This document shows, piece after piece, positions 419 to 9,026 of a DNA stretch of 64,000 nt. Position 1 is the stretch's first letter. Every line of letters begins with the position of its first letter. This stretch comes from Gemmatimonadaceae bacterium (GTDB lineage Bacteria; Gemmatimonadota; Gemmatimonadetes; Gemmatimonadales; Gemmatimonadaceae), in contig JAHBVS010000002.1 in NCBI GenBank assembly GCA_019637445.1, forward strand, positions 62,001-126,000, in the 5' to 3' direction. The notes under the pieces were generated by a model that ran no database searches, had not been told where the DNA came from, and was given only the letters and a program-made list of their open reading frames with translations. The translations under genes and the position numbers were made by a program.

Positions 419-687
419 CAGCCCGTGATCCCCGGAATGGCGCGGAAGATCTCGGCCGTGTAGCGCACGGCGGTCTGGATCAACCAGGGCAGGGCGAGCA
501 GGAAGACAATCGCGACTGCCGCGAACTTGGGCACGAAGGCCAGCGTCTGTTCCTGGATCTGCGTCACCGCCTGCAGGAGGCTGACCACGAGGCCAAGCGC
601 CAACGCGGTGAGCAGCATCGGCGCGCCGAGCAGCATGGCCATCAGCATCGCGCGGCGCGCGAGATCGACGATCATCGCGTCCGACAT
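418..687 (-). CDS. fliQ: Flagellar export protein FliQ
   Basis: Small export-gate subunit with two membrane helices that wraps the FliP/FliR core. I start it at the internal ATG (MSDAMIVDLARRAM), giving 89 residues, the usual family length; a longer frame exists upstream but would overlap fliP by about 40 bp. This ATG overlaps the fliP stop (TGATG). The conserved core LVVSLLQAVTQIQEQTLAFV with the TQIQEQTL loop is a clear FliQ hallmark, followed by a second helix ending in the AVRYTAEIFRAIP region. Confidence 0.96.
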   Translation of the reverse strand: MSDAMIVDLARRAMLMAMLLGAPMLLTALALGLVVSLLQAVTQIQEQTLAFVPKFAAVAIVFLLALPWLIQTAVRYTAEIFRAIPGITG

Positions 688-1883
688 CAGGCGAAGCTCC
701 GGATGAGGCCCTGGATGACCAGCGTCCAACCATCCACGAGCACGAAGAGCAGCAGCTTGAACGGCAGCGAGATCATCGCCGGCGGCACCATCATCATGCC
801 CACCGACATCAGCACGGAGGCGACGACGATGTCGATGACGATGAACGGCAGGAACAGCGCGAAGCCGATCTGGAACGCGGTGCGCAGCTCGGAGGTGACG
901 AAGGCCGAGGTCAGCACGAGGATGGGGATCTCCTCGGGGCTGTTGACGGCCGGCGTGTTGGAGAGCTCGAGGAAGTTCTCGACGTCCTCCTCGCGTACCT
1001 GCGAGAGCATGAACGTGCGGAAGGGATGCGAGGCCGTCTTCAGCATCTCGGCCTGCTCCATCGCGCCGTCCATCCAGGGCGTGAAGGCCGTGCGGTTGGC
1101 TTCTTCGATCGTCGGCGCCATCACGAACAGCGTCAGCAGCAGCGAGAGGCCGGCGACCAACTGGGCGGGCGGGGCGCTCTGCGCGCCGATGGCCTGCCGC
1201 AGGAAGTGCATCACGATGAGGATGCGGGTGAAGCCCGTCATCATCAGGACCAGCATGGGCAGCATCGTGAGCAGGCCCATCATCACGACGATGCCCACGG
1301 TGCCCGAGAGGCGGAGGCCGCCGTTGTTCTGCTGCCCGACCTGCAGCGACATCTGCGGGGCGAGGCGCGGGATCAGGCTGTCGAGGCGGGCGGCCGAGGC
1401 ACCGCCCTGCGCGGCCACGGCCTGCGCGGGGGTGGCGGCACGCGGCGCAGCCTGCGCATTCAGGGAACGCGGAGCAGCCAGCGAGAGCGCGACCAGCAGC
1501 GCGAGCCCCGTGTTGCGCAGCGTCTGCGAGACGGCGCGGCTCAGGGTCTCCTGCCAGCTCGCGCGCAGCTGTACATCATTGGAAGCGAGGGCTGCCGCGC
1601 GTGCCGGCGGCAGGACCGCGGCGGCCGTGGGTGCGTCGGCGTCGAACTCCGTCAGGAGTCGCACGCCGCCGTCACCCACGGACACCGCGAGTACCCGCTG
1701 GTCGATCTGCACCAGCGCAATCGCCTGCTTCGGCCCCAGCGGCAAACGCCGGAGCACCTGCATGGGGATCCCGGACGCGCCCGCGCCGGCCACGGGCGCA
1801 TAGCGCCTGAGCAGCTTCGCCGCGAGGAAGATCAACCCCAGCACGAAGGCCAGGGCGGAGAGCATGCCGAGGATCCCCGTCAT
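687..1883 (-). CDS. fliP: FliO-FliP fusion: flagellar export gate assembly factor joined to gate subunit
   Basis: One uninterrupted 398-residue frame with two parts. Residues 1-80 look like FliO: a membrane helix at about 4-22, then a cytoplasmic beta-rich segment (VLRRLPLGPKQAIALVQI) matching the FliO core. Residues about 121-145 form a second hydrophobic stretch ending in LNAQA, which reads like the signal peptide normally found at the N terminus of FliP. Residues about 175-398 are FliP, with the Met-rich gate segment VGMMMVPPAMISLPFKLLLF. FliO normally assists assembly of the FliP ring, so the fusion is functionally sensible. No stop or frameshift separates the parts; whether the protein is cleaved at the junction is inference. 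Overlaps fliQ by TGATG. Confidence 0.9.
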   Translation of the reverse strand: MTGILGMLSALAFVLGLIFLAAKLLRRYAPVAGAGASGIPMQVLRRLPLGPKQAIALVQIDQRVLAVSVGDGGVRLLTEFDADAPTAAAVLPPARAAALASNDVQLRASWQETLSRAVSQTLRNTGLALLVALSLAAPRSLNAQAAPRAATPAQAVAAQGGASAARLDSLIPRLAPQMSLQVGQQNNGGLRLSGTVGIVVMMGLLTMLPMLVLMMTGFTRILIVMHFLRQAIGAQSAPPAQLVAGLSLLLTLFVMAPTIEEANRTAFTPWMDGAMEQAEMLKTASHPFRTFMLSQVREEDVENFLELSNTPAVNSPEEIPILVLTSAFVTSELRTAFQIGFALFLPFIVIDIVVASVLMSVGMMMVPPAMISLPFKLLLFVLVDGWTLVIQGLIRSFA

Positions 1884-3987: not shown

Positions 3988-5310
3988 TTAGCGCTTCAGG
4001 TTCACCAACTCCTGCAGCATCTCGTCCGAGGTCGTGATCACGCGGCTGTTGGCCTGGAAGCCACGCTGGGCCACGATCATTGCCGTGAACTCGGCGGCGA
4101 GGTCGACGTTGGACATTTCCAGCGCGCCGCTAGTCAGCGTCGACTGGCTGCCCTCGAGGGCGAAGCCAAGCACCGGCCCGCCCGAGTTGCTGGACTCCTG
4201 GTACATGTTGTCGCCGATGCGGAGCAGGCCGGCCGGGTTGTTGAAGTCGGCGAGCACGATCTGCGCCAGCGCGACGCTCACGCCGTTGGTGAACGAGCCG
4301 GTGATGAGGCCGGTGCGGTCCACCGAGAAGTTCTGCAGCGTGCCGGAGGTGTAGCCGTCCTGGTCACGGAGCACGGCGGTGGTCGTCGAGGCGTACTGCG
4401 TGATGCCGTTGACGCCCGCGCCCGGGTCGATGGAGATCGTGACCGGATCCGCGCCCGGGGGGGCGAAGCTCACCGTCTGCAGCGCGGGGTTGAGCAGCGT
4501 GCCGTCGGTGTCGAACGTGAAGACGCCGCTGCCCGCAATCGAGCCCACCGGCACGCCGGCGTTCACGAGGTTGGTCGGGTCGACTTCCCAGGTCCACTCG
4601 TTCGACGCGGTCTTGTAGAGGTAGACCTTCACGTCGTACTTGCTGCCCAGCGAGTCGTAGGCCGAGATCGAGGTCTCGGTCCACGAGCCGGTGTTGGCCG
4701 CCAGTGCGCGCGTGTCGGCATTGAAGCCACCGGTGAGCGGGCCGGCGCCGTCCGGATCCGAGAGGTCGAACACGTCGGCGGCGGCGTTCAGGTTGCCAGC
4801 CATGTTCATCGACGTCGTCGCCTGCGCCGAGGTCTTCTGACCAAAGGGCAGGCGGATGTCGCGGATGCCGTCCTGGAACACGCCATTCACGGCGACGCGG
4901 CCCTGGGCGATGAAGCCGTTGGTCGGCGCCACGAGGCGGCCGTCGGCGTCGAGCTGGAAGTTACCGGAGCGCGTGAAGAAGCTCTGCGTGCCCTTACGCA
5001 CGACGAAGAACGAGTCGCCCTGGATGGCCACGTCGGTGTTGAGGCCGGTGGTCTCGAGGTTGCCCTGCGCGAACACGGTGTCCACCGAGCCGATCTGCAT
5101 GCCGAGGCCGACCTGGATCGGGTTGATACCGCCCTGGTCGCCGGGCGGACGGCTGCCGCCCTGCAGCAGCTGCGCGAAGCCTTCCTTGAAGGTCACGCGG
5201 CCGGCCTTGAAGGCGACCGTGTTGACGTTGGAGACGTTGTTGCCGATGACGTCCATCCGGATCTGGTGATTGCGCAGACCGGAAACGCCGGCAAAGAGTG
5301 AACGAAGCAT
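3988..5310 (-). CDS. flgE: Flagellar hook protein FlgE
   Basis: Main hook subunit of 440 residues. It opens with the rod/hook/filament signature [30 protein letters not shown] and ends with the matching C-terminal helix ([33 protein letters not shown] region), the two coiled D0 parts of hook-type proteins. The middle (about 90-400) is the variable surface domain. A good ribosome-binding site (GAGGAG) sits upstream of the ATG. It lies directly after flgD, the hook cap; FliK, which sets hook length, is also in this operon. FlgG has a similar start, but the length and the position next to flgD favour FlgE. Confidence 0.93.
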   Translation of the reverse strand: [440 protein letters not shown]

Positions 5311-5325
5311 CTACGGGATCTCCTC

Positions 5326-6003
5326 TCAGGAGGTGAAGTGTCCGGCGCGGATCGACGAGATCAGCCCGATGGGGAACGTGAGTGAACCAGCGGTGACGTA
5401 GGCGCCTTCGGCGCTCAGGCGGACGCCGTCCACGCGGATGGCGACCTGGGTGGCGAGCGGGGTGGTCTCGCCCTCGGACTCGAAGTCCACGGCAATCCGA
5501 TACGACCCCTCGGGAAGGCCGTCGAGTGCGTCGGCGACATCGAGGCTGCGCTCGCCGCCCGCCATGTAACCGAGCGGGATCGTGCGCAGCGTGTTGCCCT
5601 CGAGGTCGGTGACGCGCAGCGTGCCCACGCCGCCACTCGACGGCACCATGACCTCGGCCCGCTCGGTGCCGTTGGGGCCTGCCGCCACGAGGTCATCCAT
5701 CACCATCGCCTCGCGGCCAATCAGGCCCACGGCGGCGGTGTTGTTGATGACGCCGAGCATCGCGTCCAGGCCGGCGGCCTGGTTGTCGAGCTTGGTGCCG
5801 AGGTTGACGAGCTGCTCAACCGACGAGAACTGCGCCAGCTGGGCGGCCATCTGCTGGCCGTCGAGCGGGTTGAGTGGATCCTGATGCGTCATCTGGGCGA
5901 CGAGCAGCTTCAGGAACTCGTCCTTGCCAAGCTGCCCGCCGGCCTGCGTGAGCGGTGCGGCGGTTGGTGCGCCACCCCAAACGGGCGAAATGGGCGCGGT
6001 CAT
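5326..6003 (-). CDS. flgD: Flagellar hook assembly (cap) protein FlgD
   Basis: Hook scaffolding protein of 225 residues that caps the growing hook and is discarded later. The N-terminal export and capping region has the conserved GQLGKDEFLKLLVAQMTHQD-PLNP motif, followed by the QFSSVEQL segment found in nearly all FlgD proteins. Residues about 95-215 form the FlgD Tudor/FnIII-like domains. The start overlaps the fliK stop (ATGA), coupling the ruler and cap genes, and flgE follows after 15 bp. Confidence 0.95.
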   Translation of the reverse strand: MTAPISPVWGGAPTAAPLTQAGGQLGKDEFLKLLVAQMTHQDPLNPLDGQQMAAQLAQFSSVEQLVNLGTKLDNQAAGLDAMLGVINNTAAVGLIGREAMVMDDLVAAGPNGTERAEVMVPSSGGVGTLRVTDLEGNTLRTIPLGYMAGGERSLDVADALDGLPEGSYRIAVDFESEGETTPLATQVAIRVDGVRLSAEGAYVTAGSLTFPIGLISSIRAGHFTS

Positions 6004-7961
6004 TGGGTCTCTCCTTCCTGCTCGCGCCGCGCGCGATGCCGGTGATGTGGGTTCTGGTGCGCGTGCTGCTGCTGTCCGTCTCGCCCCTCGCCGCCGTGGC
6101 GGGAGTCGGAGGCGTGGCTGGACTCGGTGGTCAGCGTGCGCACCTGCAGCGCCGACGCTTCGTAGCCGTGCTCGCCCAAGCGCTGCGCGAGTTCCGGCAG
6201 TCGGCGCGTCAACGCCGACACTTCGGACGAGCGCGCCACAGCGATGTCCGCGGCGACGCTGTCACCGCGGAGGTCCACACGGATGCGATGATCGCGGCCG
6301 GCCTCGTCCTCGACGCGCAGCGTCAGGCTCTGCAGCGGCTGCGACCTCTTGGCCTCGGCCAAGGCCTCAATGCGGTCGAGGCGCTCAGAGACGCGTGGCC
6401 CATCAATGCGATCGGTGCCGGTTGTGGTGCCGCTGCCCGCGCTGCGCTCGGTGCGCCCGCGGAGCTCGAACGCCGGACGCTCCGCGTCGGCGGAGGCAGC
6501 GGCATCCATTGCCGTCGCGTCCGTGAGATCGGAGGACTCAAGTTCCTCGTCGACCGGCCGAGTCTCGCTGGTGCGGAGGGACAGCTCGGCGCCGCGCGAC
6601 GCGGCGGCTGTGCCAGTAGCCGGCCCTCCCAGAGCCCCGCGACTCGTGTCGTCGGAGGGGATGGGGGCGGATGCGTCGTCTGACGTGGCCGAATGGACGG
6701 GTGTGCCCATTGCAGATTCCGACGCCGACGAAAGCGCCGGCGCTGCGGCCGTCGCCGGCGATGCGGTCGGCGTTGCAGGTGTCGCAGCCGTTGCAGACAT
6801 CGCCGCCGCTGAAGCCGAGGACGCTGCGATCGGCTTGCTGCCGGGCTCGTGCACCAAGGCCACTGTGGCCACCCGCGCAACGATTGCCGGCGTGGCAACT
6901 GCCGCAGCGCCGACGACAGCAGGCGCTGCCGGCGCCGCGACGGACGCGCCGGCACTCGCGAACGGCGTTGCAGTGCTGCTCGTGGCCGCCGCCGTCGCAA
7001 CAGCCGAGGCGCGCGGTGCCAAGCCCGCGCGCCCGCCCGCGTTCGCAGACGCACCGGCGAGCGCGCCCTCGCGCAGCTCAACGTGTCCCGCGTCCTTCAT
7101 CCCCAGCGTCGAAAGGCCTTCCTCGCGCGCAATGCGCTGCAGGCGCTCATACGCGGCCGTGTTCGACCAGTCACCATCGACCACCAGGTCCGCAGCGCGG
7201 CCCTGTGTGTGCAACGAGTCCATCGTCCAGGTCACGATCTCGCCGGGCGCGCTGCGGCCCTTGGCGTGCAACGCCGCCTGCCGCTCCTCGCTGCGATACG
7301 TCTCGACCACGCTGACGCTGTGCCCGTGCTCGCTTGCCATGCGCGAGATGACGCGCTCGACGCGGATGCGTAGCTCTGGATGCAGCGCTTCGAGATCGCG
7401 CACGGGGCGCAGCGCCTCCGCGGACGACGCACTCGGCTTGGCGGACGTCGCCGCGAGTTCCGTAGCTGCAATGCCCGATGCATCAGCGGAGGCAGCGGCC
7501 GACGATCCGCTCGCCGCGGCGGCGACCATCGCGGCAACGGCGATGCCGTCGTCGACGGCACCGAGCTGCGCGTGAGCGGTCGGCGATGACGCAGCGCCGG
7601 ACGCGATAGCGTCGGCTGCCGCGGTCGAAGCGTCCGATGACTCATCAGCGGCACTATCGGCGTGGGCGTCAGAACCCGTGGCCCCGGCGGTCACGCCTTC
7701 GACGAACGCACGCAGTGCCTCGCGCGCCTTCAGCGCCTCAGCCGACGGCGCGGCCTCAGCCTCTCCTGCGAGCGTGGCAGTTGGCGCCGCCTGCGAAAGC
7801 CCTTCGCGCGTGGTGATGCGGCCGGGATGTGCGAGCATGGACATCAGCGCCGCGAAACGCGTCGCCGTTGCGGCATCCGCCGCGGCGCTCGCCGCCGTCG
7901 CCGAGGTCGAGGCCTCGCCTGTCGCAGCTGCGGCAGTCGGGAACAACGTGGATGGCACCAT
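6000..7961 (-). CDS. fliK: Hook-length control protein FliK with an internal M15-type peptidase domain
   Basis: Predicted 653-residue protein from the ATG that overlaps the motE stop (TGATG). The C-terminal domain (about 543-607) matches the FliK hook-length domain (LQSLTLRVEDEAGRDHRIRV onward) and ends in a His/Gln/Arg-rich tail. The linkers (about 55-185 and 300-530) are Ala/Ser/Thr-rich, like other FliK rulers. Unusually, residues about 189-297 form a compact M15-family (VanY/CwlK/endolysin-like) peptidase: ETYRSEERQAALHAKG, then S249-L-H251-xx-G-xxx-D258, then D290-A-G-H293. These fit the zinc ligands and catalytic Asp of M15C L-alanyl-D-glutamate peptidases. FliK is itself exported, so the domain could reach the cell wall; that is inference. 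Confidence 0.88.
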   Translation of the reverse strand: MVPSTLFPTAAAATGEASTSATAASAAADAATATRFAALMSMLAHPGRITTREGLSQAAPTATLAGEAEAAPSAEALKAREALRAFVEGVTAGATGSDAHADSAADESSDASTAAADAIASGAASSPTAHAQLGAVDDGIAVAAMVAAAASGSSAAASADASGIAATELAATSAKPSASSAEALRPVRDLEALHPELRIRVERVISRMASEHGHSVSVVETYRSEERQAALHAKGRSAPGEIVTWTMDSLHTQGRAADLVVDGDWSNTAAYERLQRIAREEGLSTLGMKDAGHVELREGALAGASANAGGRAGLAPRASAVATAAATSSTATPFASAGASVAAPAAPAVVGAAAVATPAIVARVATVALVHEPGSKPIAASSASAAAMSATAATPATPTASPATAAAPALSSASESAMGTPVHSATSDDASAPIPSDDTSRGALGGPATGTAAASRGAELSLRTSETRPVDEELESSDLTDATAMDAAASADAERPAFELRGRTERSAGSGTTTGTDRIDGPRVSERLDRIEALAEAKRSQPLQSLTLRVEDEAGRDHRIRVDLRGDSVAADIAVARSSEVSALTRRLPELAQRLGEHGYEASALQVRTLTTESSHASDSRHGGEGRDGQQQHAHQNPHHRHRARREQEGETQ

Positions 7962-8560
7962 CACTTGGACGCTCCGTTGCCGCGCGCGAGCATCGAGCGC
8001 GTCAGCAGCGCCGAGCGCTCGGCGGACATCAGCGCAAGGATCTCGCCGGCGCGACGCTCAGGCAGCGCGCTGAGGATCGTGATCACGTCCTGGTCCGCCA
8101 TCTGCTCGAGCACCTTGGCGGCGTCGCGGGCGGACATCGACTGGAAGAGCTTGGCGACCTTGCCGGTGCGCTCAAGCGCCATCGAGTCCGCGGCGGCCAC
8201 CGCAGCGGTCGGCCGTATCTGCAATCCGGCGGTTGCGCGTGCGGCCACCGATGCATCCGGCGCACCGAGTCCGGAGGTGGTCGGAGCCGCAGGTGACGTC
8301 GCGTCGATGCCGGTCGCTGCCAACTCGGTGTGCGCGGCTTCTGCTTCGGCGTCGGAGGCGTGGTCCACGCCCGCGTCGGCATTGAGCACCAGCTCGCCGG
8401 ATTCCAACACGCCCGCATCCGCCCCGTCGTGGGTCGAGTCGGCGGCGGCCAACGTGCTGTCCGTGGCCACGTGCTTCGGCGCGCGCAGCATCCCGACGCC
8501 CGTACCCGCAGCGGCGAAGATGGCAAAGGCCGCCGCAGCGGCAATGATCGGCTTCAACAT
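7961..8560 (-). CDS. MotE-like flagellar membrane protein (MgtE N-domain type)
   Basis: Predicted 199-residue protein between fliJ and fliK, the place where MotE-type proteins are found. From the chosen ATG (MLKPIIAAAAAFAIFAAAGT) it has one N-terminal membrane helix, an Ala/Asp/Ser-rich linker (about 40-140), and a C-terminal helical repeat (KLFQSMSARDAAKVLEQMAD, then ITILSALPERRAGEILALM) with the MgtE-N/FliG-like fold pattern. Proteins of this kind act as chaperones or partners for MotB and the stator; that role is by analogy. The longer upstream frame would overlap fliJ, so I rejected it. No motA or motB is in the window. Confidence 0.75.
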   Translation of the reverse strand: MLKPIIAAAAAFAIFAAAGTGVGMLRAPKHVATDSTLAAADSTHDGADAGVLESGELVLNADAGVDHASDAEAEAAHTELAATGIDATSPAAPTTSGLGAPDASVAARATAGLQIRPTAAVAAADSMALERTGKVAKLFQSMSARDAAKVLEQMADQDVITILSALPERRAGEILALMSAERSALLTRSMLARGNGASK

Positions 8561-8561
8561 C

Positions 8562-9026
8562 CTAGGCAATCCCTCGCTGTGGTCCAGTCGTCGCGTGCCG
8601 CAGGGCAATGGCGTCCATTGCCAGGCGTGCCCGCTGTTCGGCGTCGGCGCGCCACGCGGCGCGGTGCTTCTCGCGCAGGCGCTCCAGCACGCGGCGCTCC
8701 TGTGTGCGGGCGGAGAGCGCCTCGAGGCAGCTGCGTTCGCTGGCCTCCGCTTCCGCGATCTGCGTGCGGATCTCCGCGGCGCGGCTCTCGGCCTGCTCGA
8801 GCAACAGTCCCATTGCCACGCGGTCGCCCGGCGACGTGTCGCGGCCGGTCTGGCCGAGCATGCGCAGGCGTGCCTGCTTCACGATGCCCTCGACCTCTCG
8901 CAGCACATCGCGCAGCGTCTCGACACGCGCGCGCGCGCCGGCCACTGCCGCGCCGGCCTCCTCCTCAGAGCGCTCGCGCAGCGCGAGCAGGCGGTCCATC
9001 CGGAAGTCGAACTGTTCACCCTTCAC
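8562..9026 (-). CDS. fliJ: Flagellar export chaperone/ATPase stalk protein FliJ
   Basis: Predicted 154-residue, almost wholly helical, charged protein with the antiparallel coiled-coil pattern of FliJ (RMDRLLALRERSEEEAGAAV at the start, LERLREKHRAAWRADAEQRA near the end). FliJ inserts into the FliI hexamer like the gamma subunit of F1-ATPase and links it to FlhA. The start is a GTG overlapping the fliI stop (GTGA). Low sequence conservation is normal for this family; position after fliI supports the name. Confidence 0.85.
   Translation of the reverse strand: MKGEQFDFRMDRLLALRERSEEEAGAAVAGARARVETLRDVLREVEGIVKQARLRMLGQTGRDTSPGDRVAMGLLLEQAESRAAEIRTQIAEAEASERSCLEALSARTQERRVLERLREKHRAAWRADAEQRARLAMDAIALRHATTGPQRGIA

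Follow-up and report, generated by a model that had tools for sequence, protein, structure and literature searches.

The window, that is, the whole 64,000-nucleotide stretch of Gemmatimonadaceae DNA that was analysed, encodes a set of flagellar proteins, among them the hook-length protein FliK (654 aa; 6000..7964, minus strand), which was identified from its open reading frame, a weak match to Flg_hook, and the flagellar gene order. The gene is read here from a GTG on the 7964 side; an ATG one codon later, at 7961, is an equally possible start. The end of fliK is overlapped by flgD, encoding the hook cap (5326..6003, minus strand; PF03963, E 3e-21), beyond which lies the hook gene flgE (3988..5310, minus strand). 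On its other side, fliK is flanked by genes for a MgtE_N-domain protein, FliJ, and FliI. A place beside flgD/flgE and fliJ/fliI is a usual one for fliK. In related loci, an flgE homolog is present in 54 of 65, and flgD lies on the strand of fliK in all 56 loci in which it was found. The MgtE_N-domain protein is MotE-like and is encoded directly upstream (7961-8608, minus strand), overlapping the start of fliK. Elsewhere in the window, FliO and FliP form a single open reading frame of 398 aa (687-1883, minus strand) with FliO at residues 24-96 and FliP at residues 201-393.

The C-terminal domain of FliK (FliK-C; Flg_hook, PF02120; 6132..6347, minus strand) is only weakly matched by Pfam with E values of 1e-4 to 1.8e-5, which is under the curated cut-off, as is also the case for several other FliK proteins of the phylum. 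It is preceded by a linker of about 240 aa rich in Ala, Gly, Ser, Thr, and Pro (6348..7073, minus strand), and N-terminal of this linker lies a cysteine-free domain resembling L-Ala-D-Glu peptidases of the M15C type (residues 181-297; 7074..7424, minus strand), which was recognized by profile, fold, and tblastn. A family profile detected FliK-C in 47 of 47 open reading frames that contain the M15 domain and do not run off a contig, with distances between the two domains of 87-309 aa. In a second collection, FliK-C was found in 59 of 65 loci, the remaining six being cut by contig ends.

FliK thus holds an M15C-type domain that is related to known peptidases by sequence and by predicted fold. 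A profile built from the domains of 39 relatives and run against the PDB matched the endolysins LysB4 (6akv, E 3.1e-12) and Ply500 (2vo9, E 4.5e-12), and a tblastn search with the domain retrieved phage L-alanyl-D-glutamate endopeptidases with a best E value of 2e-13. In contrast to the profile, the single sequence gave only sub-threshold Pfam matches to VanY (E 7e-4; 19.7 bits, cut-off 25), M15_2 (E 2e-3), and M15_3 (E 4e-3; 17.7 bits, cut-off 23.2), and Pfam alone would therefore miss the domain. In relatives, E values for M15 families reach 3.4e-6. PF13539 had no match anywhere in the genome, and NCBIfam yielded weak M15-type matches only. An AlphaFold2 model of the domain based on 47 sequences (pLDDT 90.5, pTM 0.83) matched Ply500 in Foldseek with 3.5e-7 and in VIA-align with a Z score of 13.4 and an rmsd of 2.3 over 113 residues. 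The four best structural chains, Ply500, LysB4, LysECD7, and ChiX (Z 13.4-12.7, 103-113 residues, rmsd 2.1-2.6), are all L-Ala-D-Glu peptidases, and VanY-like enzymes and Hedgehog rank below them in both programs. These results bear out a preliminary description of this DNA, in which a compact M15C-type domain within FliK had been proposed from the letters alone and a significant M15 match and the zinc site of a predicted structure had been named as checks; for the structure, the support is at the level of the fold. The location given there, 7071-7397, was right, but its limits were not, the domain being slightly longer.

In the M15C peptidase EndoT5, zinc is bound by H66, D73, and H133, and D130 is the catalytic residue (PMC10487532). 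The H-x6-D and D-xx-H spacings of the FliK domain are the same, which assigns H252 (7209..7211), D259 (7188..7190), and H294 (7083..7085) as predicted zinc ligands corresponding to H66, D73, and H133, and D291 (7092..7094) as predicted catalytic Asp corresponding to D130, all on the minus strand. The preliminary description had recognized this pattern as H251/D258/D290/H293; the pattern stands, and the numbers shift by one because they had been counted from the ATG at 7961. The domain also has the YRS..RQ..L..QGR..PG..VT motif in common with Ply500, LysB4, EndoT5, LysECD7, CwlK, and ChiX, from which it differs in being embedded in FliK, and in lacking a wall-binding domain, and with which its identity is about 30-45%. 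A further invariant residue, W246 (7227..7229, minus strand; 115 of 115 aligned sequences), belongs to a VTWT motif six residues N-terminal of H252 and also occurs in the endolysin of Aeromonas phage Lolek. A different Trp is missing. In phage M15C enzymes, the Trp represented by W114 of EndoT5 is strictly conserved and critical, and a W114A variant is inactive (PMC10487532). Its counterpart in EndoRB49, W109, lies five residues ahead of the catalytic Asp. The FliK domain has an invariant Thr286 at this position, and the loop ahead of the last motif, which bears the Trp in the phage enzymes, is shortened. Since this Trp near the active site is absent, the domain is referred to as divergent M15C-like rather than as a typical phage-type member.

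The predicted active site is strongly conserved. In an alignment of 115 rows, H252 is retained in 114 and D259, D291, and H294 in 115 each, and 83 of the 84 distinct cores retain all four residues. One metagenome-assembled genome (MAG) has H252Q. A chance arrangement of residues, a candidate explanation of the H/D/D/H pattern, is ruled out by this conservation across 84 distinct sequences. The retention in relatives that the preliminary description had made a point of possible refutation was thus found. In a set of 51 domain rows collected purely by similarity and not selected by motif (two of them from this genome), no row deviates at D259, D291, or H294, and a single row deviates at H252. 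The peptidase domain is the most conserved of the parts of FliK measured across three families, with a mean pairwise identity of 59%, whereas FliK-C reaches 40% and the linker 26%, and it exceeds FliK-C in 98% of pairs.

The distribution of the fusion was determined in a phylum sample of 298 genomes, of which 80 contain FliG and were taken as flagellated and 218 do not; counts per family were tallied by hand. As the preliminary description had suggested looking for, other FliK proteins of the phylum carry the same insertion: it was found in 62 of the 80 genomes with FliG, as opposed to one of the 218 without, and this single genome (G236) is an incomplete assembly. Strong matches within the genomes with FliG are confined to the families f1 (54 of 56), f4 (2 of 2), and f5 (6 of 7) and were not obtained in f2 (0 of 8), f7 (0 of 1), and f11 (0 of 6); the FliK proteins read in f2 and f11 have no M15 domain at all. 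The exceptions in f1 are G169, whose FliK ends at a contig end, and G039. Two fragmented assemblies, G187 and G203, yielded no FliK of any kind, so that loss of the M15 domain is not demonstrated in these two or in G169. In the flagellated genome G039, the M15 domain of FliK (L058, 2334-4055, minus strand) is decayed and the active-site residues are lost; in G089 (L020), which belongs to the same genus, the domain is intact. When 84,980 species genomes were scanned for the motif, all matches looked like Gemmatimonadota-type loci, including those in two records that bear other names and are probably misbinned. The scan would overlook FliK fusions with more distantly related M15 domains. Its pattern included D291 and H294, so that its loci are no independent evidence for these two residues, for which the set found by similarity has to be used. 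Resolution of the domain tree is insufficient to tell whether the fusion arose once. Weak M15 matches in f6 proteins of 364-446 aa (L052-L056, L061, L065) were rejected as FliK because their genomes have no FliG match and five of the proteins formed a separate clade in a tree. These proteins carry an M15-like SWH...AADYDV...NDPGHVY motif, and two that were tested had no Pfam match.

What is known of how the flagellum passes the wall concerns chiefly enzymes that cut glycan and are part of FlgJ or accompany it. In agreement with the preliminary description, FlgJ is not encoded in the window; flgJ of this genome is located some 10 kb outside it, ahead of its first position (within L117:7656-8168, minus strand), adjoining the P-ring gene flgI and the L-ring gene flgH, whose presence means that the rod must cross the wall. 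The encoded FlgJ consists of the rod cap domain alone without a hydrolase domain, which settles a check proposed there, and the same holds for FlgJ in all genomes of f1, f2, f4, and f5 examined. A search of 14 genomes yielded no GH73 glucosaminidase, and FliK has no match to the rod-binding domain PF10135. A single SLT protein is encoded in this genome, on another contig. Of the flagellar proteins examined, FliK alone was found to bear a wall-hydrolase domain; this comparison does not extend to all envelope enzymes encoded elsewhere in the genome. The distant flagellated family f11 combines a FliK without M15 with a FlgJ whose C-terminal domain is of the SLT (lytic transglycosylase) type and not GH73 (L075, L076, L081, L084, L086, L096). 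The flagellated f2 genomes (G029, G036, G043, G118, and others) have neither FliK-M15 nor a FlgJ hydrolase, which indicates that a different source of wall cutting can suffice. The earlier suggestion that the peptidase stands in for a FlgJ enzyme is thus compatible with the bare FlgJ of f1, f4, and f5 but does not apply universally.

From these computed results, namely the domain with its fold and family, its conservation and distribution, and the FlgJ without hydrolase, we infer with reasonable though not firm confidence that the FliK domain is an active peptidase delivered via the rod to open the peptidoglycan; export, zinc binding, activity, substrate, place, and timing all belong to the inferred part. 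FliK would accordingly have two functions, one as ruler and export switch, residing in the N-terminal region, the linker, and FliK-C, and one as a catalytically competent M15C-type zinc peptidase. Export by the flagellar type III system would take place in the unfolded state, in which a small zinc domain without cysteine could cross the channel and then fold outside. With the rod tip still in the periplasm, the emerging domain would fold, bind zinc, and cleave stem peptides of peptidoglycan, most likely between L-Ala and D-Glu, immediately in front of the rod or around it. This may open the wall for rod and P-ring, a task that is performed elsewhere by the C-terminal hydrolase domain of FlgJ. 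Published work on Salmonella describes periplasmic secretion of FliK while the rod is being built, and activity there of an enzyme joined to it. Clearing of peptidoglycan for the rod is an inference that fits this published periplasmic secretion as well as the hydrolase-less FlgJ, and a stem-peptide peptidase that opens the wall is favoured because the domain would lie at the peptidoglycan while the tip is in the periplasm. Somewhat less assured, but still rather to be expected, is the wider proposal that the ruler molecule itself measures rod and hook and cuts the peptidoglycan ahead, as a peptide-cutting replacement of the glycan-cutting FlgJ- or Slt-type enzymes in several families of Gemmatimonadota. 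Against an active peptidase that opens the wall speak the missing Trp that is critical in phage enzymes, the absence of biochemical or genetic data, the decayed domain of G039, the MAG with H252Q, and the f2 genomes without either enzyme. FliK is also secreted once the outer membrane has been crossed, where peptidoglycan is absent, which likewise counts against opening of the wall.

The same loss of the Trp and shortening of its loop would be compatible with a merely structural role, in which the M15 fold, stabilised by zinc, forms a plug once it has emerged at the tip and, without cutting, blocks back-sliding of FliK or binds the rod/hook cap or the wall. A folded ball at the exit would fit a ruler, and the fold has non-enzymatic relatives such as Hedgehog. 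This explanation nevertheless appears unlikely, because D291, a catalytic Asp rather than a zinc ligand, is invariant (51 of 51 in the unselected set), the variable spacing between M15 and FliK-C is odd for a fixed ruler stop, and genomes whose FliK is without the domain cope. Slightly less plausible still is that an active wall peptidase acts at another step, such as local reshaping of the wall where the P-ring or the stators sit, or the liberation of wall fragments, and not in rod passage. FliK secretion persists through rod and hook assembly (PMC13344023), which would allow such a role, and the one general SLT protein of the genome could serve the rod; the lack of a hydrolase on FlgJ in these genomes and of any other wall-hydrolase domain among the tested flagellar proteins argues against this reading.

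Cleavage of a flagellar protein as a checkpoint, for example of the FlgJ rod cap or the FlgD hook cap, is conceivable insofar as FliK is described in the literature to reach the tip, where the caps are located, but the close relatives of known function all cleave peptidoglycan peptides, and we regard this as very improbable. Even less credit can be given to a neutral insertion without any role: the decayed domain of G039 speaks for it, yet the identity of the domain across three families, higher than that of FliK-C and linker, largely refutes it.

Both halves of this FliK belong to known families, and a wall hydrolase fused to an exported part of the flagellum is already known from dual-domain FlgJ. 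The latter combines a rod cap with GH73, or with SLT in f11, and is likewise exported by the flagellar type III system at the rod/hook stage and fused to a wall-cutting domain. It differs in that the hydrolase is borne by the rod cap and not by FliK and cuts glycan and not stem peptides, and the catalytic families are unrelated. SltF-type enzymes such as Rhodobacter SltF and Borrelia BB0259 provide wall cutting for flagella with a single-domain FlgJ, as is proposed here, but they are free enzymes and not part of FliK. These lytic transglycosylases are stand-alone and cleave glycan strands (PMC8517470). Rulers of the FliK/YscP type (PF02120) have the low-complexity linker, the order of flgD/flgE and fliJ/fliI, and the C-terminal Flg_hook, only weakly matched here, in common with this FliK, whereas the FliKs of f2 and f11 are without its enzyme domain. 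No previously described FliK with an enzyme domain is known to us. The combination, and wall cutting on a ruler, were not found in the literature searched, which left subscription journals largely uncovered; within this limit, the statement of the preliminary description that no described FliK of this kind is known is upheld.

If the proposed function is correct, it adds a domain to a protein long viewed as ruler and switch only, couples the opening of the wall to both ruler and type III export, and supplies bacteria whose FlgJ is single-domain with a means of cutting the wall. Wall passage would then apparently be assigned to a FliK-borne peptidase in place of glycan cutters on or beside FlgJ, and the growing flagellum probably brings its own wall-opening tool in most of the sampled flagellated relatives. 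Among cultured species, G. phototrophica and G. groenlandica have been shown to possess flagella (PMC10581226). The FliK-M15 domain is encoded in a MAG that bears the name G. phototrophica (L137), so that the prediction can be tested experimentally in cultured, flagellated Gemmatimonas species.
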